From a virus: a stretch of 49,658 nt of DNA. Of the stretch, positions 25,598 to 43,913 are shown in pieces. Location: IMG/VR virus record IMGVR_UViG_3300045999_010429, positions 1-49,658 of that record, one strand, 5' to 3'. The first letter of the stretch is position 1, and the number at the start of each line of letters is the position of its first letter. The position numbers and the translations under genes were made by a program. Below the pieces are notes generated by a model, which made no database searches, was not told where the DNA came from, and saw only the letters and a program-made list of their open reading frames with translations.

Positions 25598-25726
25598 ATG
25601 TTCGAAGCAATTACACACGCATTAGGTCTTTGCGGAGACCAGCATCCAACTTTTTTAGGAGTTTTGTTGGAATTTCCACAAATTAATCATATATTCTATT
25701 ATATAAAACATGGAGGAAAACTATGA
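25598..25726 (+). CDS. Small ORF of 42 residues between queD and queE
   Basis: ATG at 25598 to TGA at 25724-25726 encodes MFEAITHALGLCGDQHP and a hydrophobic/aromatic C-terminal half. Its stop overlaps the next ATG as ATGA, and the start has the AAGGTTATG context seen at many genes here, supporting a real gene. The Cys-Gly-Asp-Gln-His stretch might bind metal. No family is recognised. Confidence 0.55.
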   Translation: MFEAITHALGLCGDQHPTFLGVLLEFPQINHIFYYIKHGGKL

Positions 25727-25951: not shown

Positions 25952-26791
25952 ATGAGTAAAATAGATCCACACAAACTATTAATTTCTAGTGACTTCTACT
26001 CCGTCCAAGGTGAGGGTATCTCATCAGGAGTGCCCTCTTACTTTGTCCGTCTAGGTATTTGTAACCTAACCTGCGGTATGAGCCGGAAGTTTGCTAATCA
26101 GTTAGAGAAAGAAAAAAAACTAGAGGATGGAGAAATCTTTGTAGGTGACTTGCATGCTGAAGGCAAAGCAACTTGGACTTGTGATTCTACAAGTCAGTGG
26201 TTGTGGCGAGGCGAAGATAAAGACTTTCAGTACTTGATTGATCGCTGGAAGGAGCAGGATATCTACGATGATATTAAAGAAGGTAATATTCATATTATTT
26301 GGACAGGCGGTGAACCTACTATTAAAGGTCATCAGGTAGCAATTACCAACTTCTTTAAGTACTGGTCTACTCAAGAAAACTTTAACAATGACTACAACGT
26401 TTTTAACGAAATAGAAACTAACGGTACTGTCGTTATCGATAACGACCTGTTTGATATTATTGATCAAATTAATTGTTCACCTAAGCTCTCTAATTCTGGT
26501 ATGACTGCCAAGCAGCGTATCAATCCTGAAGCCATTAAACGAATAATGCAACATGGAAACTACCAATTCAAGTTTGTTATCTCGACTGAAGAAGATGTAC
26601 AGGAACTTTTCCGCGACTTTGTCGTACCATTTAGCATACCTCTTTCCAAAGTGGTTTGTATGCCAGGATTAGATGATGTTAAAGACTTTGAAGAGCGTAC
26701 CCAATTCTGTTTAGAAATGGCTAAAAAGTATAAGTTCCGTGGATTAACTCGTTTGCATATTGCAGCTTGGAATAAAACCTTAAATGTATAG
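25952..26791 (+). CDS. queE: QueE-like 7-carboxy-7-deazaguanine synthase (radical SAM)
   Basis: The 279-residue product has QueE signatures: FYSVQGEGISSGVPSYFVRL, the start of the radical SAM motif at Cys37-x3-Cys41, WTGGEPTIKG and NEIETNGT. The expected third cysteine of CxxxCxxC is displaced. A stretch of about 33 residues separates Cys41 from WTCDST with Cys77, so the cluster ligands would be C37-x3-C41-x35-C77. It converts 6-carboxytetrahydropterin to 7-carboxy-7-deazaguanine. It starts 1 bp after the preceding gene (TAATATG). Confidence 0.87.
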   Translation: MSKIDPHKLLISSDFYSVQGEGISSGVPSYFVRLGICNLTCGMSRKFANQLEKEKKLEDGEIFVGDLHAEGKATWTCDSTSQWLWRGEDKDFQYLIDRWKEQDIYDDIKEGNIHIIWTGGEPTIKGHQVAITNFFKYWSTQENFNNDYNVFNEIETNGTVVIDNDLFDIIDQINCSPKLSNSGMTAKQRINPEAIKRIMQHGNYQFKFVISTEEDVQELFRDFVVPFSIPLSKVVCMPGLDDVKDFEERTQFCLEMAKKYKFRGLTRLHIAAWNKTLNV

Positions 26792-26792
26792 T

Positions 26793-26933
26793 ATGAAAGA
26801 ATTGCTAAAGGATATCAAGGCATTTCTTATTAAACACAGATTTACAATTCTCTGTATTATAGTTGTTGCTTATTTGGTAATTGACTGGGCAGATATAAAA
26901 CAGGGTATTATAGATGGGTGGTCAAGCAAGTAA
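26793..26933 (+). CDS. Small single-pass membrane protein (46 aa)
   Basis: ATG at 26793, one base after the queE stop codon, gives MKELLKDIKAFLIKHRF then a hydrophobic helix (TILCIIVVAYLVI) and a short acidic tail. The tight spacing after queE supports a real gene. Function unknown; small one-helix proteins are common in phage early regions. Confidence 0.55.
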   Translation: MKELLKDIKAFLIKHRFTILCIIVVAYLVIDWADIKQGIIDGWSSK

Positions 26934-26947
26934 AAATAATTAAACGT

Positions 26948-27037
26948 ATGATAGCTGTAGCAGCGATCGTAGTGCTTATTTTTGTAGCCGTGTACGGAAC
27001 TATCGATATGTGGAAGCAAACAAGAAAGCTGAAATGA
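26948..27037 (+). CDS. Tiny membrane peptide (29 aa) coupled to Smr gene
   Basis: ATG at 26948 encodes a hydrophobic helix (MIAVAAIVVLIFVAVYG) and a basic tail ending at TGA 27035-27037. Its stop overlaps the ATG at 27034 as ATGA. The overlap and the charge pattern (hydrophobic helix then KQTRKLK) suggest a genuine gene or a coupling leader for the Smr protein. Confidence 0.45.
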   Translation: MIAVAAIVVLIFVAVYGTIDMWKQTRKLK

Positions 27038-27240
27038 AAAAATTAGATCTACACGGACTCTCTCACCTAGAGGTTGAGGATAAAGTAGAGAACTTCGTTT
27101 TATTAAACGAACCGCCTTTCTGTATTATAACAGGTTATTCAGAGAAAATGAGAGAGATTGTTAAGCTAATACTTAATAAACACCGTTTACAGCACTATAT
27201 TCCAGCACATAATGCCGGAGAAATAATTGTAATAGATTAA
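27034..27240 (+). CDS. Smr-domain protein
   Basis: From the ATG at 27034 the product is 68 residues, essentially only an Smr (small MutS-related) domain. It has an N-terminal LDLHGLSHLEVEDKVENFV, then CIITGYSEKMREIVKLIL in place of the usual TGxG loop, and a C-terminal strand. Smr domains bind or nick branched DNA or cleave RNA. The LDLHG motif is retained. A GTG at 27010 would lengthen it but overlaps the upstream peptide. Its place inside the que cluster does not reveal a role. Confidence 0.72.
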   Translation: MKKLDLHGLSHLEVEDKVENFVLLNEPPFCIITGYSEKMREIVKLILNKHRLQHYIPAHNAGEIIVID

Positions 27241-27245
27241 AGTAT

Positions 27246-27506
27246 ATGAATCAAAAAACAACAGCTGAAAGCTTCTACGAAGCCATCAAGCATGTAGGCG
27301 CCGGAAGCCTCTACTACCTCACCCGCAAAAAGGACTCTAAAACAGACTTTGTTTTTGAACCTCTCGTTATTGATACAAAAGACAAGGAGTTGACCGTAAA
27401 GATTTTACAAAGGGCAATGGAGCACCCCGACTTCATAGCTTTTCCTGGAACCCCCGAAGCCTACAACTTTATGCGCGGGGAAGTTGACAATACGACTGAA
27501 AAATAG
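27246..27506 (+). CDS. Hypothetical protein
   Basis: The 86-residue soluble protein has SFYEAIKHVGAGSLYYLTRK at the N-terminus and a FIAFPGTPEAYNFM segment. The family is unknown to me. It follows the Smr gene by 5 bp and belongs to the same run of small genes between queE and queC. Confidence 0.6.
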   Translation: MNQKTTAESFYEAIKHVGAGSLYYLTRKKDSKTDFVFEPLVIDTKDKELTVKILQRAMEHPDFIAFPGTPEAYNFMRGEVDNTTEK

Positions 27507-27518
27507 TATATTTAAAGA

Positions 27519-27755
27519 ATGACAATAACGTTAACACAAGAACATCTGTATATAGGTATTATAGCGTTTTTAGGCTTTTTACAGTTAGTGCAGTGGAAGT
27601 CTATTAAAAAGCTGCAAGATGAATGCGACAAGTTATGGGAGCAGTTAGGTACCCTGGTGTCTGGAGTAAGTAATCAGATAATCTCTATTCAAAAAGACCT
27701 TAACAGTAAAGAAGATAAAAAAACCGGTTCTGAGGCTAATCGGGATACAAAATAA
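27519..27755 (+). CDS. Small membrane-anchored coiled-coil protein
   Basis: This 78-residue protein has a membrane helix at about residues 9-26 (YIGIIAFLGFLQLVQW), then a coiled-coil segment (SIKKLQDECDKLWEQLGTL) and a polar tail. It could be an i-spanin-like or simply a membrane accessory protein; the sequence does not decide. TATATTTA lies just upstream of its ATG, with TTGA 19 nt before that. Confidence 0.55.
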   Translation: MTITLTQEHLYIGIIAFLGFLQLVQWKSIKKLQDECDKLWEQLGTLVSGVSNQIISIQKDLNSKEDKKTGSEANRDTK

Positions 27756-27782
27756 TACGCTTCTAACTCTAATTTTTAACAG

Positions 27783-28736
27783 ATGAAAAAACAAGCAGTG
27801 TTATCATTGTCGGGCGGGATGGATAGCTCTACCCTACTCCTGCACCTTCTTGCAAACGGTTTTCAAGTAACAGCACTATCTTTCGACTACGGCCAAAAGC
27901 ACCGTGTTGAACTTGAGCGCGCTAAATCATTAGTAGATTATATTAATGATAGAATGTTTTATACTAAACAAGATAACTATGTAAAGCATCAGGTTATCAA
28001 ATTAGACGGACTACAACAACTTCTCAACTCAGCACTTGTTGAAGGAGGGAAAGATGTTCCTGAAGGGCATTACGAGCAGGATAATATGAAAGAAACAGTA
28101 GTACCTAACCGTAATAAAATATTCTCCTCTATCATACAGGCAGTTGCTTTATCTATAGCGACAAAGCCGATTGGAGATGACTGTTCTGTAGGTCAAGAAG
28201 TAGCTATTGCATTAGGTATTCACGCAGGCGATCACGCCATTTACCCGGACTGCCGTCAAGAATTTAGAGACGCCGATATGGAAGCTTTTAGAATGGGTAA
28301 TTGGAATTCAGAACTAGTAGGATTTTATACTCCGTATCTCTATACCGATAAGCTTGGCATTTTACAAGACGGTGCCATGTGTTGTGAAGGGTTGGGATTA
28401 GACTTTAACGAAGTGTACAAACGTACTAATACAAGTTATAAACCAATTCAAATCGGTAACGTATGGTACTCGGATTATAAATCAGCAGCATCAGTAGAAC
28501 GTATTGAAGCATTTACTAAACTAGGACGTCCTGATCCTGTTGCATATGCAAACGAAACCGGTCCTGTAAAATGGGAAGTAGCAAAAGAATATGTAGAGCA
28601 GGTATTATCAAAGTATGCTGAAGAGAAAATGAAAGCTAACGCTATTGCTAATCCTCCTATGTTAGAAGGTACTGATAAAGCCTACTCTCCCACAGCTTTG
28701 TCTTACCAGCACGTAGCTACAGAAGGAAGAAGTTAA
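27783..28736 (+). CDS. queC: QueC-like 7-cyano-7-deazaguanine synthase lacking the zinc cysteines
   Basis: The 317-residue protein has the N-type PP-loop SGGMDSS at residues 9-15 and further QueC marks (FDYGQKHRVELERA, VVPNRN). It is longer than typical QueC (about 225 residues). The zinc site of QueC (SC followed by CxxCxxC) aligns with TNTSY and NVWYSDYKSAASVERIEAF at about 212-236, where all four cysteines are replaced. It should convert 7-carboxy-7-deazaguanine to preQ0, which the downstream QueF would use. The altered site may change stability or product, so activity is not assured. Confidence 0.82.
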   Translation: MKKQAVLSLSGGMDSSTLLLHLLANGFQVTALSFDYGQKHRVELERAKSLVDYINDRMFYTKQDNYVKHQVIKLDGLQQLLNSALVEGGKDVPEGHYEQDNMKETVVPNRNKIFSSIIQAVALSIATKPIGDDCSVGQEVAIALGIHAGDHAIYPDCRQEFRDADMEAFRMGNWNSELVGFYTPYLYTDKLGILQDGAMCCEGLGLDFNEVYKRTNTSYKPIQIGNVWYSDYKSAASVERIEAFTKLGRPDPVAYANETGPVKWEVAKEYVEQVLSKYAEEKMKANAIANPPMLEGTDKAYSPTALSYQHVATEGRS

Positions 28737-28765
28737 ACTAGCAGTAAAACCTAAATAATTAAACT

Positions 28766-29548
28766 ATGGCATTAATAAGTCACGAAATACCTAAGCAGCT
28801 GTTTCCTTATCACGATCTTATTAGCGATTATCCCTACGTATTAGGTCATTTGCTAAATAATGATCGACAGTATACAGAGTTTTATAAAGAGAAACTTAAG
28901 ACTGCCCCTTACTCTATATTGGATAACTCTGCTTTTGAACTCGGTCAATCAATCCCAGGAGAGGAGTTGTACGAGCTTGGAGAAGAGTTTCAACCTACGC
29001 ACTTAGTGCTTCCCGATAAAGTAAATGACTACCGGCAGACTATGGAGAATGCTGTAGAATATCTCGGTAATTATAGGTCGGATAAAGTGAAGTACATCGG
29101 AGTATGTCAAGGAGACACATTTGAAGATATTGCTGATTGTATTGATTTTTATACTGAAAAAGATATTGATATTATTGCATTGCCTTTTGACCTAGTACCA
29201 GATTCTGACTACGTGACAGTACGTTTTCGTTTCTTGAATTGGTGGTATTCTAATAGGTATCGCTTTAGCGGCCGACTTCACAAATTCCATCTACTTGGAT
29301 GCCAGAATCCGGTTGAGTTTCAGCTTTTTAAGTATAATCAACAGCATTTAACTAGTTATATTTATTCCTTGGATACTAGCTCACCTATTGTAAATGGATG
29401 GTCAGGAAATAAACTAGGACCTAACGGTCTTACCGCTCCTAAACCAAAAGCTAAATTAGCTGATAACCTAGATATTGAACTGTCTAAAGAGCAGCTTGAA
29501 TTAATTTTTGATAACGTTAAAACTTTTAGAACTTATGTCAGTAAGTAA
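28766..29548 (+). CDS. dpdA: DpdA-like DNA transglycosylase (TGT family)
   Basis: The 260-residue protein follows the tRNA-guanine transglycosylase/DpdA pattern. ILDNSAFELG holds the equivalent of the conserved Asp in the TGT DSGGF motif. THLVLPDKVNDYRQT, GVCQGDTFEDIADCI, HLLGCQNPVEF and SLDTSSPIVNG (second conserved Asp) follow. Phage DpdA proteins exchange guanine in DNA for a 7-deazaguanine base. Its place between queC and queF strongly supports a DNA modification role rather than tRNA queuosine. The specificity (preQ0, preQ1 or a derivative) cannot be read from the sequence. Confidence 0.76.
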   Translation: MALISHEIPKQLFPYHDLISDYPYVLGHLLNNDRQYTEFYKEKLKTAPYSILDNSAFELGQSIPGEELYELGEEFQPTHLVLPDKVNDYRQTMENAVEYLGNYRSDKVKYIGVCQGDTFEDIADCIDFYTEKDIDIIALPFDLVPDSDYVTVRFRFLNWWYSNRYRFSGRLHKFHLLGCQNPVEFQLFKYNQQHLTSYIYSLDTSSPIVNGWSGNKLGPNGLTAPKPKAKLADNLDIELSKEQLELIFDNVKTFRTYVSK

Positions 29549-29549
29549 T

Positions 29550-30458
29550 ATGAATGAAGCGGCTTCGCGGTCGCTTGGATCCGCAAACTCTTATGCGGTT
29601 TATACAGATAAATTTGATCCATCGCAGTTAAACCCTATGCCGCGTATTCTTGCACGTCAAGACTGGGGAATTAAGGGAGATGAGTTTGTAGGATACGATG
29701 TATGGCATTGTCATGAAGCTACTTTCCTTCTTAACAACGGTCTTCCGGTAGCAGGTACTTTAAAGATTATCTGTCCCTCTGATTCGGAGTTCATGGTAGA
29801 GTCTAAGTCTTTTAAGCTTTACCTGAATACTTTCGATATGTGTAAGATGGGAGCTACTATGGACGAAGCGATTGCTAATTACGAGAATCAAGTGAAGGAA
29901 GATGTTAGTGCTTGTATTAAAGCAAACGTAGAGGTAGCCTTCTTTAAGTCCGGTGATGATAAAGCTAAGGTAGCAGATCCTACTGCCGGGTATTTAGATT
30001 TATATAGAGCTATTCCAGAGGGCGAATTAGAGAAGATGGAGATTACCGACTATAATGCTACTGGCGAATACTATCTTGTGAGCCTTGACGGTAATACAGA
30101 TGGAGAAGAGGTTAATTACTTCACTAACGTATTGAGATCTCGTTGCCGTCATACAAAGCAAAAAGATACAGGCGCGGCCTACTTTACTATTAAAACCAAG
30201 CAAGGAGCCGTAGATAAGAAAGGCCTCTTAAAGCTTGTAATTTCACTTCGCGAAGTAAATGAGTTTCACGAATTCTGTGCTGAAAAGCTCTATACAGAGA
30301 TTATGTCTAACTCTCTAGTAGAAGAATGCTGCGTAATGCTACTCTACTCACGCCGCGGTTCATTAGATATCTGCCCGGTACGTGCTACTAAGCCTTCTAT
30401 GATTCCTGCAGCTCTTAAATCTAAGTTTTACTACACTCAAAAAGCGATGGGACAGTGA
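29550..30458 (+). CDS. queF: QueF, NADPH-dependent preQ0 reductase (bimodular type)
   Basis: The start is chosen at ATG 29550, directly after the dpdA stop (TAATATG); ATG 29535 is possible. The product is about 302 residues, similar to E. coli-type bimodular QueF. It carries ESKSFKLYLNTFDM, the active-site Cys and Asp in RSRCRHTKQKDTGAAYF, the His/Glu in NEFHEFCAEKLY and RRGSLDICP. All catalytic positions look intact. It reduces the nitrile of preQ0 to the aminomethyl group of preQ1. A reductase here implies that the phage base is preQ1 or made from it. Confidence 0.9.
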   Translation: MNEAASRSLGSANSYAVYTDKFDPSQLNPMPRILARQDWGIKGDEFVGYDVWHCHEATFLLNNGLPVAGTLKIICPSDSEFMVESKSFKLYLNTFDMCKMGATMDEAIANYENQVKEDVSACIKANVEVAFFKSGDDKAKVADPTAGYLDLYRAIPEGELEKMEITDYNATGEYYLVSLDGNTDGEEVNYFTNVLRSRCRHTKQKDTGAAYFTIKTKQGAVDKKGLLKLVISLREVNEFHEFCAEKLYTEIMSNSLVEECCVMLLYSRRGSLDICPVRATKPSMIPAALKSKFYYTQKAMGQ

Positions 30459-31015
30459 CGAAGCTACAGAAAGACTGGGCAGTACTGGTATCACAAACAG
30501 CATCAGAGGTTATTGCTATAAGTGAAGAGCTTGGGTTTTTCCCAAGCCTTCTCATAACCAACAATCTTCGTAAGATACCCCAAAAGAACCTAGAGATCCT
30601 TGGGAAAAACGGTGTAGAGATAAGGACCATTCCCTTCAATCCAGTAATGGAGAATTATCTCATTCCAGAATTGTTAGAAAAGAAGCTAATAACCTTACAC
30701 GGATTTTTACGAATTCTACCGCCAGGCTTTTTTAACCAGTTTAAAGGAGGGTTCTACAACGGTCATCCCGGACTTATAACCAAGTATCCGGAATTGAAAG
30801 GGAAAGATCCGCAGGTTAGGGCTTGGGAAGGTAAATATCCTACGATCGGTTCCGTAGTACATAAGGTAACAGAGGGGGTAGATGAAGGAGAGGTAGTAAA
30901 TTTTAGCGCTATTCCTAACGTAGCAACAACTCTTGATGAGGTATTTTATGCCCTTCGTAGTACTTCCCTTGAAGCGTGGAAAAGCTTTTTTACAAATACT
31001 TGGAAATTTGAGTAA
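30455..31015 (+). CDS. Formyltransferase of the GART/PurN fold in the 7-deazaguanine operon
   Basis: The 186-residue protein starts at GTG 30455, overlapping the queF stop as GTGA, so the two are coupled. It has formyltransferase features: FLRILPPGFF, the active-site Asn and His in YNGHPGLI, and a GSVVHKVTEGVDEGEVV segment with the conserved Asp. These enzymes move a formyl group from 10-formyltetrahydrofolate to an amine. Coupled to QueF, whose product preQ1 has a free primary amine, it may formylate preQ1 or the base in DNA. A plain role in purine synthesis is less likely given the context. Confidence 0.8.
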   Translation: MTKLQKDWAVLVSQTASEVIAISEELGFFPSLLITNNLRKIPQKNLEILGKNGVEIRTIPFNPVMENYLIPELLEKKLITLHGFLRILPPGFFNQFKGGFYNGHPGLITKYPELKGKDPQVRAWEGKYPTIGSVVHKVTEGVDEGEVVNFSAIPNVATTLDEVFYALRSTSLEAWKSFFTNTWKFE

Positions 31016-31030
31016 AAGTCTGTATATTTT
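31000..31030 (+). promoter_or_regulatory. Host-type promoter TTGG-N19-TATATTTT
   Basis: TTGG at 31000-31003 and TATATTTT at 31023-31030 are 19 nt apart, the same spacing as the sites at 1028 and 16514. It lies 13 nt before the next ATG and overlaps the end of the formyltransferase gene. Confidence 0.45.
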
Positions 31031-31043
31031 ACAAAATACTTAG

Positions 31044-31553
31044 ATGAAAATACTACTTGGATCTCACGGAACTGGTAAAACTACCTTATTAAAGGAGGTA
31101 TCTACTAAGTTTCCTGAATACTACGTTACTGACGGTTTTTCTAGGCCTGTTATTAAGATTGGAAAAATGCTTGAGTTATCTAATAACGAAAAGCAGTATG
31201 CTATTAATGAGCTATCGGCCTGGGCCTATCAAAATTACCTTACTCATAAGAATGTAATCAGTACCCGAAGTATTGTAGACTGTATTATCTACTCCCAGAT
31301 TCTAGCCCCTGAACTTGATATCGAAAATCTCGTCACTCTATTTGAAGAAACTAAAGATCAGGTAGAGTATTTCTTTTATATTCCGGTTGAGTTTGATTAT
31401 GTAGCCGATCCAGACCGCTTAAGTCATGAATTGCAGCTTAAGATTGATGGCGTAATAAAAGAGTTTATGGTAAAGTACATACCTAAAGAAAAAGTCGTTA
31501 TATTAACAGGAACAGTAGAAGAGCGTTTAAATCAAATATCTAAATACCTATAA
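31044..31553 (+). CDS. P-loop nucleoside/nucleotide kinase-like protein
   Basis: The 169-residue protein starts with a P-loop GSHGTGKTT at residues 7-15. STRSIVDCIIYSQI and YFFYIPVEFDYVADPDRLS fit small AAA_28/thymidylate-kinase-like P-loop kinases. The substrate cannot be assigned. It lies 3 bp before folE and behind a host-type promoter, so a role in nucleotide or cofactor metabolism is likely. Confidence 0.72.
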   Translation: MKILLGSHGTGKTTLLKEVSTKFPEYYVTDGFSRPVIKIGKMLELSNNEKQYAINELSAWAYQNYLTHKNVISTRSIVDCIIYSQILAPELDIENLVTLFEETKDQVEYFFYIPVEFDYVADPDRLSHELQLKIDGVIKEFMVKYIPKEKVVILTGTVEERLNQISKYL

Positions 31554-31556
31554 TAC

Positions 31557-32267
31557 ATGAGTAGAGATAAACACATCAACATTGAAGAGTTAGAACTTGC
31601 CAAGGCCGGACACGCTAATGGGATCAGTACCTACCTTCGAGATGCAATTTTAGAAGGACGTCATTCACTGTCTGACGGCGAAAAGCAACGGATTATCGAA
31701 GCAGCAGCCGTACATTACGGAAAGTTTTTAACCACCTTGGGTGTAGATTGGGAGAATGATCCTAATAGCTCTAATACACCAAAGCGAGTAGCTAAGGCTT
31801 ATGTAAACGATAAATTTGCAGGCCGCTTTAATCCTTTAGCAGAAATAACAAGCTTCCCGAGTGATGGCTATACTGGAATAGTACAGGAAAGTAATATACC
31901 TGTTACTAGCGTCTGCAGTCACCATCATGAAACAATTTTAGGTCTTGTATCAATTGCATACGTACCTAGTGAAAACGGTAGAGTGGTCGGCTTGAGTAAG
32001 TTAAACCGCATTGTAGAACATTTTGGTAGGAGAGGAGCAATTCAAGAGCAATTGACTGTAGCTATTCATAATGCAGTAGATAAAATTTGCGAAGGAAACT
32101 TAGGCGTAGCTGTTATGGTAAATGCTACACACAATTGTGTAAGTTGCAGAGGAGTTAAACACCAAGGTGCTTCCATGCAAACTACGAAGCTATCAGGCTG
32201 CTTTTTAGAAGAAGACTCAGCAAGAGCAGAATTTTATAAAAATATTGATTTGGCTATTAAGAAGTAG
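31557..32267 (+). CDS. folE: GTP cyclohydrolase I
   Basis: The 236-residue product carries GTP cyclohydrolase I motifs. These include the zinc-site CSHHHE in VTSVCSHHHETILGLVSIAY, GLSKLNRIVEHFGRR, the QEQLTVAI helix, and CVSCRGVKHQGASMQTTKLSG with the second zinc Cys. It opens GTP to dihydroneopterin triphosphate, the first step toward 7-deazaguanine, and so completes the FolE-QueD-QueE-QueC-QueF set in this window. Length and motifs match cellular FolE. It lies 3 bp after the kinase-like gene. Confidence 0.93.
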   Translation: MSRDKHINIEELELAKAGHANGISTYLRDAILEGRHSLSDGEKQRIIEAAAVHYGKFLTTLGVDWENDPNSSNTPKRVAKAYVNDKFAGRFNPLAEITSFPSDGYTGIVQESNIPVTSVCSHHHETILGLVSIAYVPSENGRVVGLSKLNRIVEHFGRRGAIQEQLTVAIHNAVDKICEGNLGVAVMVNATHNCVSCRGVKHQGASMQTTKLSGCFLEEDSARAEFYKNIDLAIKK

Positions 32268-32949: not shown

Positions 32950-33104
32950 AAGGGCTAGGAGATTTAGTTGCTAAGATCACAAAGTTTTTCTACATTGATA
33001 GACTGGCCGAAAAAATAGCTCATTTGTTCGGTAAAGAAGACTGTGGATGTGAGCGTAGAAAAGATAAACTAAATAAATGGGTTCCGTTCAAAAAGAAAAA
33101 ATAG
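32946..33104 (+). CDS. Small conserved phage protein with CGC motif (52 aa)
   Basis: ATG at 32946 overlaps the end of the HNH gene by 4 bp. The product starts MKGLGDLVAKITKFFYIDRL, has a Cys-Gly-Cys-Glu-Arg cluster near residue 34 and ends in a basic tail. This pattern (GLGD amphipathic helix, EDCGC, basic residues, LNK) is familiar from small unassigned proteins in many phages, so I consider it real. Function unknown; metal binding is possible. Confidence 0.62.
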   Translation: MKGLGDLVAKITKFFYIDRLAEKIAHLFGKEDCGCERRKDKLNKWVPFKKKK

Positions 33105-33105
33105 T

Positions 33106-33639
33106 ATGTTAAATTCAAATCAGATAATTGAAGAAGGTCTACTTAAGCTAGACGAAACTAAAGGTAAACCAGCACAAGTCGGTTTCGATGTTACCTTAAA
33201 AGCAGTAAATAAGGTAGGTAACAAAATTGGCGGAGGGGTCTATAACTTACCTAGAGGCGGTAAAATAGGTAAAGTATTAAAAAATAAAACCGAACTGACC
33301 ACTTACACCCCTGTCGAAACTATTCGATTAGATGAGGTAGAAGGATGGTTATTATATGAAGGTACTTATGATATTACATTTAACGAAGGATGTAAGATTC
33401 CTAATAATCGCGTAGCATTTATTAAGCAGCGATCCTCTCTCTGGCGTAATGGAGCCCTTATTAATTCCCCGGTGTTTGACCCTGGTTTTCAAACAGATAA
33501 CATGGGAACCATCATGCTAGTGACCGAGACGATATTTATTGAGAAGGATGCTCGTGTAGCTCAAATATATTTTCATGAATGTGAACCTGCTGAAGAGTAT
33601 AATGGACAATGGCAAAATGATAAACAACGAAATAAGTAA
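33106..33639 (+). CDS. dUTPase / dCTP deaminase superfamily protein
   Basis: The 177-residue protein shows the family core at about residues 104-136: KQRSSLWRNGALINSPVFD followed by PGFQTDNMG. RSSL and the Asp before PGF match conserved motifs. The deaminase catalytic Glu expected in the following strand (ITLE) is not evident in TIMLVTET, so dUTP hydrolysis or a non-catalytic role is more plausible than deamination. Phages use these enzymes to keep uracil out of DNA. It is 1 bp after the preceding small gene. Confidence 0.75.
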   Translation: MLNSNQIIEEGLLKLDETKGKPAQVGFDVTLKAVNKVGNKIGGGVYNLPRGGKIGKVLKNKTELTTYTPVETIRLDEVEGWLLYEGTYDITFNEGCKIPNNRVAFIKQRSSLWRNGALINSPVFDPGFQTDNMGTIMLVTETIFIEKDARVAQIYFHECEPAEEYNGQWQNDKQRNK

Positions 33640-33642
33640 GTT

Positions 33643-33804
33643 ATGCAACCAAAAGAATCAAAAACGTATTGGCATTTTTACTGTAGTATGTCTAAATCAA
33701 TACTCAGAGTAGGAGCAGGATATTTTTTAATTGAAAATAACCTGATAGGAGCTGGCTGGTTGTTGATTATAGCCGAAGTACTAGGTATTATTGAAGAACT
33801 ATAA
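33643..33804 (+). CDS. Small membrane protein (53 aa)
   Basis: ATG at 33643 in the TAAGTTATG context, 3 bp after the dut-like gene, encodes a polar N-terminus (MQPKESKTYWHFYC). Two short hydrophobic segments follow (RVGAGYFLIENNLIGAG, WLLIIAEVLGII). Spacing and start context support it. Function unknown. Confidence 0.52.
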   Translation: MQPKESKTYWHFYCSMSKSILRVGAGYFLIENNLIGAGWLLIIAEVLGIIEEL

Positions 33805-33849
33805 AACAAATATAGAAGAATTTAAAGACTTGAAGAATTAATTTTAACT

Positions 33850-33877
33850 AAGTTCAAAATTTTGCGATTTTTTCATG
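33850..33877 (+). repeat. Left arm of 28-bp imperfect inverted repeat flanking the 33911 gene
   Basis: This 28-nt sequence (core TTTGCGATTTTTTCATG) recurs in inverted orientation at 34376-34402 with one substitution and one single-base gap. It lies 33 nt before the start codon of the secreted protein gene. Confidence 0.88.
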
Positions 33878-33892
33878 TCCAGTTATGTATTG
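33861..33892 (+). promoter_or_regulatory. Candidate host-type promoter overlapping the left inverted repeat
   Basis: TTTG at 33861-33864 and TATGTATTG at 33884-33892 are 19 nt apart and lie 18 nt before the ATG. The -33 part is inside the inverted repeat, so a factor binding the repeat could control this gene. Confidence 0.35.
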
Positions 33893-33910
33893 TAAACTAA
33901 AAAACAAATT

Positions 33911-34354
33911 ATGAAAAATTTATTTTTATTATTTTTAGCAGTAACTTTTACATTGACTTCATCTGCACAATTGAAAGGATGGAACGTCTCTACAGGTGCT
34001 ACAGTTTTTGCACCTATTGCTAAAAACGTCAATTGGAATTCTAAATTTTGGGGACAAAGAGTAACGTTTTCTAAAAAAGATCTAAACGTTACCGTTGGTT
34101 ATATGCAAAATAGAGCAGGTAATGCACAAATCCCTGTACTCGTCGGTGCTGAAAGAAGTCTTGGTAAAATTTTCAAAGTAGGATTTCGCAGCGGTATGAC
34201 TTTCTTTAACGACCAGAAAGGGCAGTTTACTTATATGCCCTCTGTTAGATACAGCTTGAATAAAAAGTGGTGTGTCGAACAATCAGTTCTTAGAATGGTA
34301 AAAGACGGTAAGCATTCAAGCCAAGTCGGCTTCGGTGCTTTCTATCATTTTTAA
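33911..34354 (+). CDS. Secreted, probably outer-membrane beta-barrel-like protein
   Basis: The 147-residue protein starts with a clear signal peptide (KNLFLLFLAVTFTLTSSAQ, cut probably before Gln). It continues with alternating strand-like segments and ends in GFGAFYHF, a C-terminal aromatic residue typical of outer-membrane barrels. The length would allow a small barrel of about eight strands. A phage-encoded surface protein may alter host receptors or block superinfection. The gene is bracketed by a 28-bp inverted repeat, so it may be a mobile or invertible cassette. Confidence 0.7.
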   Translation: MKNLFLLFLAVTFTLTSSAQLKGWNVSTGATVFAPIAKNVNWNSKFWGQRVTFSKKDLNVTVGYMQNRAGNAQIPVLVGAERSLGKIFKVGFRSGMTFFNDQKGQFTYMPSVRYSLNKKWCVEQSVLRMVKDGKHSSQVGFGAFYHF

Positions 34355-34375
34355 TAGGAAAGTTCGAAAATAAAG

Positions 34376-34402
34376 CATGAAAAAATCGCAAATTTTGGAC
34401 TT
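34376..34402 (-). repeat. Right arm of 28-bp imperfect inverted repeat
   Basis: CATGAAAAAATCGCAAATTT and the next seven bases are the reverse complement of 33850-33877 apart from one substitution and one missing T. It lies 22 bp after the stop codon of the secreted protein gene and 20 bp before the bS21 start. Confidence 0.88.
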
Positions 34403-34421
34403 GGTTAAAAATTAACAGGGT

Positions 34422-34601
34422 ATGATTATAGTTAACATAGATAATTCTATCGAACAGGCGTTAAAGCAATATAAGAACAAGCACAATAAAATCGGTGTTG
34501 TAAAAGAACTGCGCGATAGACAGACCTACACTAAGCCGTCTATAAAGCGTAGAACTGAAATACTTAAAGCTAAGTATGTAGAGTCAAAAAAAAGTAAGTG
34601 A
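34422..34601 (+). CDS. rpsU: Phage-encoded ribosomal protein bS21
   Basis: The 59-residue protein reads as a bS21 homologue. MIIVNIDNSIEQALKQYKNK is followed by KIGVVKELRDRQTYTKPS and a basic tail with IKRRTEILKAKY. Length, the ALKxYK motif, the GVxxELRxRQ motif and the PSxxRR motif all match bS21 of Bacteroidetes. bS21 binds the 30S subunit near the anti-Shine-Dalgarno end of 16S rRNA. A phage copy may replace the host protein and favour phage mRNAs. The stop overlaps the next start as GTGA. Confidence 0.88.
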   Translation: MIIVNIDNSIEQALKQYKNKHNKIGVVKELRDRQTYTKPSIKRRTEILKAKYVESKKSK

Positions 34602-35617
34602 AACTAGACAAGTATAATAAACTGCGGTTGAAGCTCGAGGTGCATAAGCTCGAGCAAAACTATTTTACCCTAGATAGAATACTGTACTACTTTTCTTTTC
34701 TAGGTAATATCTTTTTGATCTACTTTGGATACTTTTTTGTAAAGTCTATTACAGACAGTATTCCACCGCTATTCCCTTTCCAGAATACTTTTTTTACTAT
34801 TTTTGTAGCTCTCTTTCTTACTGGGTATGAACTTACAAAACGGTTTGTACTAGAGCAGCTATCGATTAGCATTTTACAAATCAAAAAGTTCACCGCCACT
34901 ATTGCCATTGGATCTCTTATCTGTTTAGGTTTAATTGCAGGAAGCTTTTATCTTTCCATTAAAGGAGCTCACAGACTTATAGATAATACTGAAACGATTC
35001 AAACTGTAGTAGAAGCTACCACCTCTCAAAAAGCAGATTCAGTAGCAAGCTATTACGACAAGGAGATTCAGTACTACAGAAATCAACCGACTAAAACTAG
35101 GACTGATAGACAGTACCGGGACTCTATTGTAGCTACCTTACAGCAAACTAAAGATGCTAAGTTGAAAGAGATAGAGGGTAAGTCTCAAGAAAAGGCTGCT
35201 ACAAAGCTTGGCGAGAGCAGTGAAAATTCCACAGCATTCTTCTTTATAACAGTATTTCTTGAATTGCTTATCCTAATAGGGGTAGGGTTTAATGCATTCT
35301 ATACTATAGGTAGTTACGACGAAACTAAAAAACTTTTACAAACTCCCAAGTTCAAACAGTTGGAGCTTAACTTAAAACTTCTTAGATTGTATTATCAGAA
35401 CGGTAAGAAGCTAGCTAACGATCCTACACTATCGTATAACAAGTTTCAATCCCTGGTACAGACACAAGGTATTTACTGCTCACAAAAAGACTTAAAAGCG
35501 TTTATTACCCTGTGCCAGGAGTTAGAAATTGTTAGAGATTCCAGAGGTAGGAGAAAAGAGTTAACAATGTCTTACGATGAAGCGAAAAAACTGATAGAGA
35601 ATCAAGAAGGATTATGA
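34598..35617 (+). CDS. Membrane protein with extracytoplasmic coiled-coil, unknown function
   Basis: The 339-residue protein starts at GTG 34598, overlapping the bS21 stop. It has about four membrane helices (near residues 30-50, 63-82, 98-124 and 212-235). A charged, partly coiled-coil loop lies between the third and fourth (SQKADSVASYYDKEIQYYRN). The soluble C-terminal domain looks helix-rich, like a winged-helix (YNKFQSLVQTQGIYCSQKDL). It overlaps the polymerase gene by 4 bp, so it is coupled to both neighbours. I do not recognise the family. Confidence 0.65.
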   Translation: MKLDKYNKLRLKLEVHKLEQNYFTLDRILYYFSFLGNIFLIYFGYFFVKSITDSIPPLFPFQNTFFTIFVALFLTGYELTKRFVLEQLSISILQIKKFTATIAIGSLICLGLIAGSFYLSIKGAHRLIDNTETIQTVVEATTSQKADSVASYYDKEIQYYRNQPTKTRTDRQYRDSIVATLQQTKDAKLKEIEGKSQEKAATKLGESSENSTAFFFITVFLELLILIGVGFNAFYTIGSYDETKKLLQTPKFKQLELNLKLLRLYYQNGKKLANDPTLSYNKFQSLVQTQGIYCSQKDLKAFITLCQELEIVRDSRGRRKELTMSYDEAKKLIENQEGL

Positions 35618-37926
35618 TGCAAGAAAAAAGTTATGTCACGGTCAACGATAAGGAGACCTTCAAGCAATTAGTACAGCACATTACAGAAAGCGAATATGTA
35701 GCTTTCGATACCGAGACCGATAGTCTGAACATGCGTAAAGGCAAGATTATCGGTTTCTCTGTCTCTGGTGAGGTCGGGAAAGGGTTTTATATGCCTACAA
35801 TGGTCTGGAACGGAGAGCGTTTACAGGAGTTGTTAATAGAAGGTAAAGGAGCACACGAATTAGCTAAGTTTGCTATTACAAAGCTCGTAGATAAAAAGCT
35901 TATCTGTCATAACGCCTCCTTCGACTTACGGTACGTAAAGAATTTTTACGGTGTTGATTTACTGCCCTCTCTTCATGCAGATACTTCCCTAATCGTACAC
36001 ACAGTAAAAGAAGAAGGTGCATTCGGATACGGTAATCCTTTTGGTTTGAAATCCATTGCAATAATGGTTCAGAAGGAGATTGGTTTAGATGTAGAGACTG
36101 AAGCTAACGAAGAGCAGATTGCTCTAAAAGAAAATATTAAAGCTAACGGAGGTTCTACTTCGAAAGATAATTTCGAAATCTACAAAGCAGATATGGAGAT
36201 ACTTTCCAAGTACGCTGCCGCCGATACCGACCTTACCCTCCGTATCTATAACCACTTCTATCAGATTCTAGTTCAAGAAGGCTTGGAGAAGTTCTTTTTT
36301 GAAGACGAAGTAATGCCCGTATATAGAGAGGTTACTATACCAATGGAGGAGCATGGTATCAGACTTGATATCCCTTTAATAGAGCGTACCAAAGAGAGTA
36401 TAACGAAAGACTTACAGGAGCAATCTGAGATGATTGTTAAAGAGCTATTAAAGGAATCGAAGGTAAGAGCGTGGATTATTGATCAGGCCGTGGAAGCATA
36501 TCCGCCTAAAAGTAAGGGCACGTTTGCTCAACGTCTTCTAGAGCAGAATGGAGTAGAGCTCCCTAAATCCGAAAAGACCGGTAAGTTTACCATCAATAAA
36601 GCAGCTGTTACCGCACTACCTCCTTCAGTTATCAAGGATTTCTTGATGACTGGCGATATAGAATGTCTCAGCAAAGATCAGATTGTAAAGGCTAGTTTAT
36701 CTCTTTGGAAAGAAGATAATGACGGGCAATTTTTCAATATCCAGTCTAAAGATCAAATGGGTAAGATTGCCTTCGACGTATTGGGGGAAAAGCCTATCTC
36801 AAATACTACCAAAGGTAAGCCGCAGTTTGATGAAGACATGATTCAGTCTATCAAGGACAAGTATGCTTGGGCAAAGCATTTACGCCTCTATAATAAACTC
36901 ACTAAGATCAAAACCGCATATATTGACCGGTTTCTTGATGCAGCAGAAGATGGTAGATTCTACCCATATTTTAAGCAGAACGGTACCGTATCGGGCCGTT
37001 ACGGATCAGACATGCAGCAGTTACCTAAGCCGCTTGAACCTGGACAAGACGAGGAAATGATTATGAACTACACAAACGTAGTTCGTGCATTTTTTATTGC
37101 CGACGAGGGAGCTAAGATACTCGATACCGACTATGCATCTCTAGAGCCTAGAGTGTTTGCTACTGTAGCAGGCGACCAGGGATTGAAAGATATCTTTAAT
37201 AATGATTTAGACTTCTATTCTCACATTGCTATCAAAACTGAGAAACTAGAGGGAGTAAGTGCACATACTAAAGCACCTAATTTCCTTAAAAAGGTAGATC
37301 CGGTTAAGAGACAAACTGCTAAGGCTTATTCACTAGGTGTGCCGTACGGTATGTCTGGATATGCCCTTGCAATGTCTTTGGGTGTAGATAGGAAAGAAGG
37401 GGAGAGACTTGTAGAAGGTTATCTAGATGGATTCCCTGAACTGAGAAAGTGGAGAGAAAACTCACGTGCGTTTGTAAAGGAGAATGGTTACATTAAGAAT
37501 AAAGTAGGGCGTATTAGACATCTCCCTCAAGCTAAAGAGATCTATAATATCTTTGGAGATAAACTTATTGAAGATTGGCGATTTAGGAAGCAAGTAGAGC
37601 AGGAGTACGGAGCAGAAGCTGCAACTAATCTATATAGAGATTATAAAAATGCTCTAAACAACGTTTTAAACTTTCAGATTCAAAGCTATTCAGCTAGTAT
37701 CGTAAATAGAGCTGCTTTACAGATTAATCGTAGGTTTAAACAAGAAGGAATAAACGGCCAAGTGATTTGTCAGATTCATGACCAATTAATTTGTCAGGTA
37801 AAAGACGAAGATGTAGAGAGAGCTTGCCCAATCGTTCAAGACTGTATGGAAAATACAACTAAATTAGACGGGGTAGATCTTATAGCGATTCCAGAAGTGG
37901 CAAAAAATTTCCGTGACGGACACTAG
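35614..37926 (+). CDS. polA: DNA polymerase I family protein with 3'-5' exonuclease
   Basis: The 770-residue polymerase has an intact N-terminal proofreading domain (Asp32 and Glu34 in AFDTETDSL, later HNASFDLRY and AAADTDLTLRIY). A complete family A polymerase domain follows: motif A DTDYASLEPRVFA near 504-516, motif B RQTAKAYSLGVPYG, and motif C QIHDQL with His722-Asp723. No 5'-3' exonuclease domain is present; a separate FEN gene lies at 16938. This is probably the main replicative polymerase. It starts inside the end of the preceding membrane protein gene (ATGATG). Confidence 0.93.
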   Translation: MMQEKSYVTVNDKETFKQLVQHITESEYVAFDTETDSLNMRKGKIIGFSVSGEVGKGFYMPTMVWNGERLQELLIEGKGAHELAKFAITKLVDKKLICHNASFDLRYVKNFYGVDLLPSLHADTSLIVHTVKEEGAFGYGNPFGLKSIAIMVQKEIGLDVETEANEEQIALKENIKANGGSTSKDNFEIYKADMEILSKYAAADTDLTLRIYNHFYQILVQEGLEKFFFEDEVMPVYREVTIPMEEHGIRLDIPLIERTKESITKDLQEQSEMIVKELLKESKVRAWIIDQAVEAYPPKSKGTFAQRLLEQNGVELPKSEKTGKFTINKAAVTALPPSVIKDFLMTGDIECLSKDQIVKASLSLWKEDNDGQFFNIQSKDQMGKIAFDVLGEKPISNTTKGKPQFDEDMIQSIKDKYAWAKHLRLYNKLTKIKTAYIDRFLDAAEDGRFYPYFKQNGTVSGRYGSDMQQLPKPLEPGQDEEMIMNYTNVVRAFFIADEGAKILDTDYASLEPRVFATVAGDQGLKDIFNNDLDFYSHIAIKTEKLEGVSAHTKAPNFLKKVDPVKRQTAKAYSLGVPYGMSGYALAMSLGVDRKEGERLVEGYLDGFPELRKWRENSRAFVKENGYIKNKVGRIRHLPQAKEIYNIFGDKLIEDWRFRKQVEQEYGAEAATNLYRDYKNALNNVLNFQIQSYSASIVNRAALQINRRFKQEGINGQVICQIHDQLICQVKDEDVERACPIVQDCMENTTKLDGVDLIAIPEVAKNFRDGH

Positions 37927-38030: not shown

Positions 38031-38462
38031 ATGGGAATATTTAGACCCTTTGAGCTGGATCCATTTGACCTGCTCTGGAAAGACCTCCTTGAAACACAAG
38101 CACATTTCTCTGCAATTACGCAGAAAGTAACACATCCGGTAGACATTTACGAAACAGAAAACGGCATTCGATTTGAAGTAGCCGCGGTAGGCCTTGAAGA
38201 AAAGGATATCGAGATTCTTGTTGAAGGCGAGCAGCTTCGTATTAAGTACGAAAAGTCTGCAAACACTCAAGAGGCTCCGATTTACAGAGGTATTAAAAGA
38301 TCTTCTTTTGATCTTACCTGGAAAATTTCTTCTAAATTCGATCTAAGCCAGCTTGAAGCCTCTCTTGACAAAGGATTGCTAACATTAAGCATTCCGGTTG
38401 CTGAAGGCAAAGCAATGCGTAGAATCGAAATTAAAACTGCAAAGCAGTTAAATAGCAAATAA
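38031..38462 (+). CDS. Small heat shock protein, Hsp20 family
   Basis: The 143-residue protein has an alpha-crystallin domain at about residues 38-135: HPVDIYETENGIRFEVAAVG, EKDIEILVEGEQLRIKYE, and a final strand region GLLTLSIPVAEG with the conserved G-x-L motif. A C-terminal IEIKT follows. Small heat shock proteins hold unfolded proteins for refolding by other chaperones. GroES and GroEL genes follow, which suggests a phage folding cassette for virion proteins. The gene is bracketed by a 12-bp inverted repeat, echoing the arrangement at 33850-34402. Confidence 0.88.
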   Translation: MGIFRPFELDPFDLLWKDLLETQAHFSAITQKVTHPVDIYETENGIRFEVAAVGLEEKDIEILVEGEQLRIKYEKSANTQEAPIYRGIKRSSFDLTWKISSKFDLSQLEASLDKGLLTLSIPVAEGKAMRRIEIKTAKQLNSK

Positions 38463-38468
38463 AAAGGA

Positions 38469-38480
38469 CCTACCAAGTAC
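38469..38480 (-). repeat. Right arm of inverted repeat flanking hsp20
   Basis: CCTACCAAGTAC, directly after the hsp20 stop codon, is the exact reverse complement of 37960-37971. It also lies 6 bp before the next ATG. Confidence 0.75.
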
Positions 38481-38486
38481 TAAGTT

Positions 38487-38675
38487 ATGTTTTCTATTCC
38501 AAGAAATTTTATTAACTTTCAAGACAGGCTCTTTTTAGTAAAGAAAGTCATTAAAGAAGAACACAATCCTGTAGTAGAAGCCTGGAAGCTTCTAACTGAT
38601 TCAGATACAGTTCTTAAGAAAGACGGCATTCTTTATTTTTTAGAGAGTATTCCTGAAGCAGAAATAGTAGAATAA
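38487..38675 (+). CDS. Hypothetical small protein in chaperone cassette
   Basis: The 62-residue soluble protein (FSIPRNFINFQDRLFLVKKV, then WKLLTDSDTVLKKDGILYF) is not recognised. The start has the common TAAGTTATG context. It lies between hsp20 and groES and could be an adaptor or an unrelated early gene. Confidence 0.58.
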   Translation: MFSIPRNFINFQDRLFLVKKVIKEEHNPVVEAWKLLTDSDTVLKKDGILYFLESIPEAEIVE

Positions 38676-38689
38676 ACAAAAATAAAAAT

Positions 38690-38998
38690 ATGAATCAGTT
38701 ACAACCGATGAATGGGTACATTGCTCTAAAGCCCATTGAAGAAGAAGAGCAGACCTACGGTAATATTGTCATTCCTGATCTAGGTAAAGAAAGACCTGAA
38801 CTAGGAGAGGTGGTAGCAGTATCTGCAACCTATAATTACAACTCTGATACTTGGGTTAAATCTCAACTTCAAGTAGGAGATAAGGTTCTTATTCCTAAAC
38901 TAGGATCAGTACGTATTACCCTAGAAGGAGAAGAGTATTTTATTTGTAAAGAACAAGACATTTATTCTAAATTAGTAAAAGAAGAAAAAATATTCTAA
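38690..38998 (+). CDS. groES: GroES co-chaperonin
   Basis: The 102-residue product shows the GroES pattern. It has an N-terminal strand (MNGYIALKPIEEEEQTYG), a mobile-loop region running into IVIPDLGKERPELGEVVAV, a VGDKVLIPKLG segment and a C-terminal YFICKEQDIYSKL. It caps GroEL rings. It differs from T4 gp31, which is not recognisable as GroES by sequence. The groEL gene starts 3 bp downstream. Confidence 0.9.
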   Translation: MNQLQPMNGYIALKPIEEEEQTYGNIVIPDLGKERPELGEVVAVSATYNYNSDTWVKSQLQVGDKVLIPKLGSVRITLEGEEYFICKEQDIYSKLVKEEKIF

Positions 38999-39001
38999 GC
39001 C

Positions 39002-40657
39002 ATGACAACAACAGTTTTCGGAACAGAATTAAAAAATAAACTACTGGCCGGTATTAAGAAACTAAACCAATCGGTTTCATCGACACTAGGTCCTGGCGGC
39101 CGTACAGTATTGATTAAAGATCAATCAGGTGAGGTCAAGGTTACGAAAGACGGAGTTACAGTAGCCCGCTCCTTTCATGAACTAGAAGACCAAGTAGAAG
39201 ATCTTGGTGCACAGCTTGTAAAGCAAGTATCTATCAAATCTGCTAACGAAGCAGGAGACGGTACTACTACTTCCACGCTTCTTGCTGCTACGATGGTAGA
39301 AGAAGGTTTGAAGCTCATTAACCAAGGATCTAATCCCGTGGAGGTTAAGAAAGCTATCGACAAGTACGTAGGAGAGGTAGTAGAACATCTTCGTAAACTC
39401 TCAAAAGATATTAGCTCTCAAGATCAAATTCAGCAGGTAGCTACCATCTCAGCTAACAACGATACCGAGGTAGGTAATTTAATCTCCACAGCTATCGAAA
39501 AGGTAGGACGTGAAGGTATCGTTACTATTGAAGAGTCTAAGACCGGAGAAACTACTCTTGAAATCGTAGAAGGTATGCAGTTTGACCGCGGGTATAAATC
39601 TCCGTACTTTGTTACGAACAATACTACGATGCAAGCTGTATTGAATGATCCTTACATTTTGATTTATGATGGACGTATTACTAAAGCAGCCGATATCCTC
39701 AATGCATTGAGTAAAGCTAATTCAGATCAGAAACCTTTGCTTATTGTTGCAGAAGATATTGAAGACGAAGCTTTGGCTACTTTGATCGTAAATAAGATGC
39801 GCGGTATTGTTTCTGTAGCTGCAGTAAAAGCTCCAGACTTTGGAGAACGTCGTACTTTGATTCTTGAAGATCTAGCCATTTTGACAGGCGGTCAAGTTAT
39901 TTCTAAGAATAAAGGACATAAGCTAGAGAAACTAACACCTGTACAGCTCGGTGAAATGTTTGGAGTAGCAAGAACTGTTACTGTAGCTAAAGAGACAACC
40001 ACAGTTGTTGACGGTAAAGGTACAGAAGAGGCTATAACCTTGAGAGCTGAGGAGATTAAAGATCAAATTGAGAAAGCTACATCTTTCTATGAGAAAGAAA
40101 AACTACAAGAGAGACTTGGAAAATTAGTTGGAGGAGTAGCTATTATATCAGTAGGCGGTAATTCCGATATTGAAATCAAAGAAAAGAAAGATCGGGTAGA
40201 AGATGCTCTGTTTGCTACTAAGGCTGCACTTGTTGAAGGTGTAGTACCTGGCGGCGGTATTGCATTAATTAAAGCTTTTAAGTATCTAAATAAAGCTACA
40301 GAAAGCGGCAATGATTCAAACGGATATAACATTGTAAAGAAAGCTTGTTACGCACCTTTCAGTACAATCCTTGCCAACTGCGGTATTGAAGATACTTATT
40401 CGATTCTAAGAGAAATATTCGATGCAGAGAAAGAACTATTCGAACAAACTCAAGAAGATAACATTTTCACCTACGACGCAAAAACACAGAGTATTGTAGT
40501 TGCTAATAAATCAGGTCTCCTTGATCCGACCAAAGTAACGCGTACAGCTCTTGAAAATGCTGCATCAGTAGCAGGAACTATTCTAACAACCGAGTCGGTA
40601 ATCTTTGAGAAGAAAGACTCTAAGAAAAAAGAAGAAGATCCGATGATGGGATTTTAA
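39002..40657 (+). CDS. groEL: GroEL chaperonin
   Basis: The 551-residue protein is a full-length chaperonin. ATP-site motifs include [26 protein letters not shown] and [13 protein letters not shown]. The apical domain has KAPDFGERR, and [13 protein letters not shown] lies in the equatorial domain. The C-terminus is charged and ends in DPMMGF rather than a long GGM repeat. With GroES and Hsp20 upstream the phage brings a complete folding machine, probably for its own abundant virion proteins. The many GGT, CGT and AAG codons suggest strong expression. Confidence 0.96.
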
Positions 40658-40736: not shown

Positions 40737-41513
40737 ATGGAAACCAACAAAGCCCTGCTAGACATTGTCTTTAGCCACCGAAACAAACAGTACGGCGCGT
40801 ACGAATTGAGATCAAATTATAATAAGAGGATCAACCGGGCTCTACTTATCACCCTTGGGTTAGCAGGTGCTTTGGTTTCCGCTTATGCGTTTAAGGATAA
40901 TAAGGAGTTTACTAAACCGATCTACACTACCACTGAAGTAACGATTACTGAGATTAGAGAGAAGGAAGTAAAACCGCCTCCACCTCCTCCACCTAAAGAA
41001 GTTCAGACTACCCAACCTACAACCGTTAAGTTTACTGAACCTATAATAGTAGATCAGCCTGTTGAGCCTATACCTGCTCAAATTGATATACGTGGATCTG
41101 AAATAGGAACAGTAAATATAAAAGGTGATACTTGTCTAATTGCTCCACTACCCGGAATAGATGGAGGTACTGGTATTGTTGATGTACCTACTGAACCTGA
41201 TATATTCGAGCGAGTTGAAATTGAAGCTGAATTTCCAGGCGGAATAAATAAATGGAGACAATACTTGGAGAGAAACTTGAGAGTAGACAGCGACATACCT
41301 GAAGGCACCTATGCTGTGCTTATTCAATTCGTAGTGGATAGAGATGGTAATATCAGCGATGTAATCGCCTTAACTGATCACGGCTACGGAATGGAAGATG
41401 AAGCCAAGCGAGTAATCAAACGCGGACCTAAATGGAACCCGGCAATCCAAAACGGACGTGAAGTTAAAGCATACCGTAAACAATTAATTACATTCCAAAT
41501 AGGAGGAGATTAA
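40737..41513 (+). CDS. tonB: TonB-like energy transducer, Bacteroidetes type
   Basis: The 258-residue protein has all parts of a Bacteroidetes TonB. These are the cytoplasmic N-terminus (RNKQYGAYELRSNYNKR), one membrane helix at about residues 34-52, a Pro-rich periplasmic linker (KPPPPPPPKE), and a C-terminal TonB domain (IEAEFPGGINKWRQYLERNL, IQFVVDRDGNISDVI, KWNPAIQNG). TonB couples the proton gradient to outer-membrane importers. A phage copy could sustain nutrient uptake or change use of TonB-dependent receptors by phages. It ends convergently with the reverse-strand fiber gene, overlapping by 4 bp. Confidence 0.88.
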   Translation: METNKALLDIVFSHRNKQYGAYELRSNYNKRINRALLITLGLAGALVSAYAFKDNKEFTKPIYTTTEVTITEIREKEVKPPPPPPPKEVQTTQPTTVKFTEPIIVDQPVEPIPAQIDIRGSEIGTVNIKGDTCLIAPLPGIDGGTGIVDVPTEPDIFERVEIEAEFPGGINKWRQYLERNLRVDSDIPEGTYAVLIQFVVDRDGNISDVIALTDHGYGMEDEAKRVIKRGPKWNPAIQNGREVKAYRKQLITFQIGGD

Positions 41514-43901: not shown

Positions 43902-43913
43902 GTAGGAGAAAGT

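Follow-up and report, generated by a model that had tools for sequence, protein, structure and literature searches.

Tyr54 of the ribosomal protein bS21 of Flavobacterium johnsoniae stacks on A1534 and turns the 16S rRNA tail towards its pocket, and the Y54A replacement raises expression of an rpsU'-gfp fusion threefold (McNutt et al., 2023, PMC9976891). The bS21 gene of Flavobacterium, rpsU, has an extended Shine-Dalgarno (SD) sequence and is autoregulated: it is an SD of exceptional strength (under -13 kcal/mol by the method of that study) that responds to the loss of bS21, and on ribosomes without bS21 initiation is faster on host rpsU and slower on SD-less mRNA (PMC9976891). The same authors speculate about a phage factor, e.g., a protease acting against host bS21, with autoregulation serving as a counter-defence (PMC9976891).

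Phage-encoded bS21 has already been published for Bacteroidetes phages (Chen et al., 2022, PMC9723584), and hence the gene described here is not new. These phage proteins have Tyr at position 54 in 54 of 61 cases and another aromatic residue in seven; their genes are expressed late and occupy the opposite strand within a set of capsid and terminase genes, and the SD of the phage bS21 gene is not discussed in the available portion of that paper. One more phage bS21, that of Pelagibacter phage HTVC008M, has been shown to enter Escherichia coli ribosomes (Mizuno et al., 2019, PMC6375957), but its host is outside Bacteroidia, and it is 51.4% identical to the protein studied here over 37 residues only.

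The stretch of DNA analyzed here (the window) corresponds to a 49,658-base virus record in IMG/VR, possibly a fragment. The bS21 gene and its surroundings comprise:

33106..33639, + strand, dCTP deaminase-like gene (dcd), identified with Pfam
33643..33804, + strand, 53-aa small protein, an ORF with similarity to other contigs seen by eye
33838..33877, no strand, left arm of an inverted repeat, from arm alignment
33911..34354, + strand, 147-aa ORF between the repeat arms, with a signal-peptide-like N terminus by eye and a weak beta-barrel match (13.4 bits, cut-off 28.7)
34376..34415, no strand, right arm of the inverted repeat, ending 6 nt before the bS21 start
34422..34601, + strand, phage bS21 gene, 59 aa, without SD (pairing at -4.7 kcal/mol), identified by Pfam, NCBIfam and solved-structure matches
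34575..34577, + strand, codon of Tyr52, the equivalent of F. johnsoniae Tyr54 by alignment (role from PMC9976891)
34598..35617, + strand, 339-aa protein with hydrophobic stretches by eye, whose GTG start overlaps the bS21 stop (GTGA)
35614..37926, + strand, family A DNA polymerase with 3'-5' exonuclease (polA), identified with Pfam, next in the array

The original prediction took the ORF at 34422-34601 (+) for a bS21, and the Pfam, NCBIfam, PHROG and structural matches all agree with it. The ORF is translated into 59 residues with no internal stops, in an open frame of 61 residues from stop to stop, with two codons before the ATG. It matches Pfam PF01165 Ribosomal_S21 (48 bits, E 1e-12, cut-off 27), the NCBIfam equivalog TIGR00030 (42.8 bits, cut-off 28.95) and PHROG 21469 “ribosomal protein S21”; its closest solved relative is bS21 of the F. 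johnsoniae ribosome (7jil, E 1.1e-10), and a further one is another bS21, 9i5v. By these matches, the 59-residue ORF is a real bS21.

The window is likely part of a large phage genome, one related to that of Flavobacterium phage immuto. The closest relatives of its polymerase (56.5% identity over 770 of 770 residues) and helicase (53.7% over 441 of 457 residues) are those of immuto_2-6A (MW353175) and its sisters; GroEL is 54% identical to that of immuto phages, and the DpdA-like and QueE-like proteins are 30 and 26% identical to their immuto counterparts. The host of immuto phages is Flavobacterium sp. LMO8, and from identities of 54-57% Flavobacterium or a relative is the likely host here, in agreement with the predicted Bacteroidetes phage. 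Pfam matches in the window cover structure and replication (T4-like baseplate, gp32-like protein, 5'-3' exonuclease, DnaB helicase, DNA polymerase A), metabolism (ribonucleotide reductase barrel, QueC, QueF, GTP cyclohydrolase I, a PTPS/QueD-type protein) and chaperones (HSP20, GroES, GroEL). The gene set of the immuto region overlaps that of the window and its order is partly similar, with QueD and QueE at one end, polA-groES-groEL at the other end, and the middle partly reordered. Unlike for the window, no S21 match was obtained for the 160,410-base immuto record in a search that found S21 in four bS21-bearing viral records, and hence bS21 is optional in this phage group.

Several other features of the window can be listed. 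The 7-deazaguanine genes (PTPS/QueD-type, QueE-like, QueC, DpdA-like, QueF, GTP cyclohydrolase I) occupy 25059-32267, related 7-deazaguanine genes being found in immuto_2-6A, and the HSP20, GroES and GroEL genes are at 38031-40657. A TonB C-terminal domain protein is encoded at 40737-41513 (36.5 bits, cut-off 24.6), and a 630-aa protein at 44426-46318 has a weak match, below the cut-off, to the Por secretion tail (22 bits, cut-off 27), which is a Bacteroidetes trait. DNA polymerase A matches are found at two proteins, 12835-14142 (27.5 bits, below the cut-off of 34.3) and 35614-37926. Repeats with mostly 42-base spacing are located at 22429-22873, inside the 1002-aa ORF 21888-24896, and no tRNA genes are found in the window.

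The optional occurrence of bS21, with its absence from the complete immuto genome, would be expected of a passenger gene that has no ribosome role or a role elsewhere. We consider this decidedly improbable, as the bS21 signature and the Tyr are conserved, many phage contigs carry bS21, and dN (by NG86) is low: 0.10-0.18 between the window gene and five close phage relatives, with dS saturated and not computable. For one of six pairs, that with locus L010, dS has been obtained (dN 0.234, dS 1.634). Low dN and saturated dS argue that the ORF is under purifying selection.

The order of genes is dcd, 53-aa protein, inverted-repeat segment, bS21, 339-aa protein, polA, and bS21 is on the same strand as dcd, polA and groEL. 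In contrast to the phages of Chen et al. (2022, PMC9723584), bS21 of this immuto-like phage thus has the strand of its neighbors and adjoins nucleotide-metabolism genes and the DNA polymerase. A late structural-module placement of the kind reported there was rejected, and as strand and module differ, we do not place the window bS21 in any of Chen's five clades. Its position beside replication genes suggests, as a guess, that bS21 is expressed together with them. A Bacteroidetes promoter consensus has no match upstream of bS21 on the + strand (33000-34421); in the whole window, the same motif has two overlapping matches on the + strand and five on the - strand.

Parts of this arrangement recur in other bS21-bearing contigs, as judged by eye. 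ORFs resembling the 339-aa protein, for which no Pfam family was found, adjoin polA in L007 and L010, and in L007 bS21, the 339-aa-like ORF and polA are consecutive; the immuto protein in the equivalent place before polA is unrelated and was rejected as a counterpart. An ORF similar to the 53-aa protein ends 13 bases before bS21 in L004, L005, L006 and L008. In L002, L003 and L009, bS21 is preceded by an IscU-like gene, with L002 ending at bS21. Pfam places a NifU_N/IscU-like gene before and an IscA-like gene after bS21 in L003 (5604-6497) and L009 (5297-6542), the IscA-like gene of L009 being one ORF further on from bS21. Our literature search found no papers joining phage, S21 and iscU. The 147-aa ORF has no relatives in viral contigs, phages or 149 Bacteroidia genomes, an empty answer in the last of these searches carrying no weight without a positive control.

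The anti-SD contact residue was examined by aligning the window bS21 with distinct proteins from three sets, namely phage (57), Flavobacterium-type (47) and Bacteroidia-wide (70). At position 54, the window protein has Tyr (Tyr52), as do all 47 Flavobacterium-type proteins, 65 of the 70 Bacteroidia-wide ones and 54 of the 57 phage ones; the remaining three phage proteins have His. In this the window protein resembles both the Flavobacterium host bS21 (PMC9976891), a member of the same protein family, and the phage proteins of Chen et al. (PMC9723584). It had been suggested that the phage bS21 could keep or change the hidden state of the anti-SD. The retention of Tyr52 favors the former; with the contact Tyr kept, the phage bS21 most likely preserves the SD-blind state.

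The closest cellular bS21s are L184 and L187 (57% identity), followed by L286, L287 and L296 (53-56%); identity to Flavobacterium-type bS21 is lower than to these three (47%). The viral contig L277 encodes a bS21 with 76% identity to the F. johnsoniae query over 49 residues, and this gene, too, is without SD (-2.7).

The leader of the bS21 gene was compared with those of host rpsU by pairing to the 12-base 16S tail CACCUCCUUUCU, which is found in three Flavobacterium genomes, with no match in a fourth; a longer tail pattern had no match in three genomes, one of them being this fourth Flavobacterium genome. Energies are ViennaRNA duplex values, unlike the published method, so that the -13 kcal/mol threshold transfers only roughly. 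An extended SD (dG <= -13) is present in all 54 distinct leader-protein pairs of the Flavobacterium-type set (mostly titled Flavobacterium, a few otherwise, e.g., L121, L127), with 79 readable loci out of 80 (L129 is cut) all at -18.3 or lower. The window bS21 leader, at -4.7 kcal/mol, lacks the extended SD (dG below -13) of the autoregulated rpsU. Among phage bS21 genes (162 loci including the window, with L080 and L081 duplicated as L197 and L198; 63 distinct pairs), no distinct leader reaches -13, four reach -12.2, and the other 59 are above -7.

The four leaders at -12.2 belong to one clade of 12 loci (L065, L067, L069, L071-L079, but not L066, L068, L070) with the bS21 SD AAAAGGAGG. In five contigs of this clade, some of them near copies, bS21 is at -12.2, while other ORFs reach -10 in none of 51 cases and -7 in four of 51; in five further phage contigs, a single ORF reaches -7, that of L010 at -10.2. 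Escape from an rpsU-type SD is therefore, as far as these leaders tell, not universal among phages. Nor is the extended SD universal in hosts. S21 was found in 142 of 149 Bacteroidia genomes searched, and among 70 leaders (the top 30 by score plus 40 sampled further down the ranking) 16 reach -13; hence, the contrast between phage and host holds for Flavobacterium-type hosts, not for the whole class. The leaders of L184 and L187 carry an extended SD (-19.6 and -18.7), and those of L286, L287 and L296 do not (-1.5, -0.5 and -2.5).

The base at -3 of the window bS21 gene is G rather than the favored A, and a helix is predicted just upstream, so that expression of bS21 could be low. The helix would be formed by the 40-nt inverted repeat at 33838-34415 that surrounds the 147-aa ORF. 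Its arms are identical in 37 of 41 columns, with two mismatches and two gaps; the score of 58, compared with at most 52 in 300 dinucleotide shuffles, is the best among 1,100-base tiles of the window, the next one being 52. The RNA spanning 33805 to 34480 has a folding energy of -166.6 kcal/mol (z -4.04, from only 20 shuffles). In the presence of the left arm the right arm is paired with probability 0.95 (0.93 with its partner), and in its absence 0.56. Between -20 and +20 around the start, pairing is 0.61 with the left arm (0.70 in a longer transcript) and 0.56 without it, and that of the start codon is nearly unchanged (0.48 with the arm, 0.50 without). Thus 6 nt would separate the long helix from the bS21 start, and a strong effect on initiation is not predicted. 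The repeat was rejected as a shared phage feature: of the 79 bS21 loci whose upstream DNA is long enough, one of which is the window, none but the window shows an arm of this kind (58, the next score being 29), and the exact 29-base arm occurs in no viral contig searched.

Two other genes of the window had been proposed to have strong SDs and to respond to the exchange of bS21:

25712..25716, + strand, GGAGG before ORF 25723, pairing at -9.3 kcal/mol
43904..43909, + strand, AGGAGA before ATG 43914, pairing at -7.3 kcal/mol

Both sites are indeed present, but they are far weaker than the host rpsU signal and do not rise above chance. In the interval from -20 to -3, one of 57 chosen ORF starts is at -7 or lower, and two if ATG 43914, which is not among the 57, replaces the GTG start 43884; in six mock windows, 0, 3, 3, 4, 4 and 8 of 57 reach -7. 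With a longer leader interval, three of 57 starts (12128, 2271, 25723) reach -7, compared with 13.7% of random positions; as the starts are located in A-rich DNA, mock windows took the place of this null. The two nulls agree that SDs are in no excess. Hence most genes of the window lack an SD, as had been stated, whereas a response of these two genes to bS21 is unsupported; SD-responsive phage genes were rejected, and the two sites need no explanation. The absence of an extended SD from the phage bS21 gene itself is more informative.

The chance level of SD-like sites speaks also against the proposal of Chen et al. (2022) that phage bS21 alters the choice of mRNA, its changed N-terminal helix over the mRNA path favoring phage mRNAs. 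Host-conserved positions do differ in the window: position 21 is R or K in all 117 distinct host proteins, N in the window, and other than R or K in at least 54 of 57 phage proteins; further, H replaces F at 23, N replaces D at 24, and Q replaces R at 14 and 18. At positions 21, 23 and 28 the window has N, H and V, compared to R, F and T in Flavobacterium-type bS21, although 28 is a weak marker, V being also the commonest residue there in the Bacteroidia-wide set. This resembles the divergence at 21, 23, 25 and 28 reported for phage proteins (PMC9723584). On the other hand, K or R is retained at position 14 in 22 of 57 phage proteins, no phage-specific mRNA motif is shown here, and drift or evasion of a host factor would explain the divergence just as well, so that we regard an altered mRNA choice as rather unlikely.

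We propose, giving it an even chance, that the phage bS21 can take the place of its host counterpart in the 30S subunit and leaves the anti-SD hidden, and that its synthesis escapes the host feedback loop. In this loop, a shortage of bS21 raises rpsU translation via the extended SD, and a surplus lowers it. The SD-less phage bS21 mRNA, similar to other SD-less phage mRNAs, would be read by ordinary bS21-replete ribosomes; its product, which may substitute for host bS21 as the pelagiphage protein enters E. coli ribosomes (PMC6375957), would fill bS21-less subunits and keep ribosomes fit for SD-less mRNAs, with the anti-SD still hidden. Given the retained Tyr and entry into the ribosome, translation of host rpsU should then fall, while SD-less phage mRNA stays readable: host rpsU would be turned down through the host's own loop, and the phage bS21 would take over. 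Such supply needs no phage factor of the protease type.

In favor of supply outside the host loop, L184 and L187, the closest cellular relatives, have an extended SD that the window gene lacks. Against it, L286, L287, L296 and most sampled Bacteroidia also have no rpsU SD; bS21 is dispensable for the immuto phage, which has none; and four of 63 distinct phage leaders do carry a strong SD. Moreover, SD absence is the default of phage genes here and need not be an adaptation: what it points to is a likely consequence for regulation, not selection for that consequence. We found no statement of this feedback escape in the literature searched (few subscription papers, no bioRxiv).

One more observation against it is that pelagiphage bS21 cut the activity of E. 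coli ribosomes to about 5% in vitro (PMC6375957), which would fit a phage protein that slows or poisons host translation instead of serving that of the phage. This is improbable, as the authors themselves note that the phage protein may misfit E. coli ribosomes (PMC6375957), and in the window the gene precedes the phage DNA polymerase and the anti-SD contact residue is retained; the phage, too, needs ribosomes.

Supply of bS21 outside the host loop can tentatively be extended. Host bS21 is made best by bS21-less ribosomes, and phage bS21 may be made best by bS21-replete ones, so that the sign of the loop would be reversed, and phage bS21 would then favor its own synthesis and shut off host rpsU; phages may be split between two solutions, one clade having a strong SD on bS21 alone, and the hairpin of the window may add a transcript-dependent switch.

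Of all ribosomal proteins, bS21 is reported to be by far the one most often encoded by phages (PMC9976891). In Flavobacterium, bS21 and the hidden anti-SD are tied to a single regulated gene with unusual clarity, and a phage bS21 that retains the contact residue but has no regulatory SD would be accounted for, simply and testably, by supply outside host control, for which the SD-bearing phage clade and the SD-less phage bS21 genes form a natural experiment. While phage bS21 is a known kind of gene, its regulatory contrast with host rpsU is worth an experiment.
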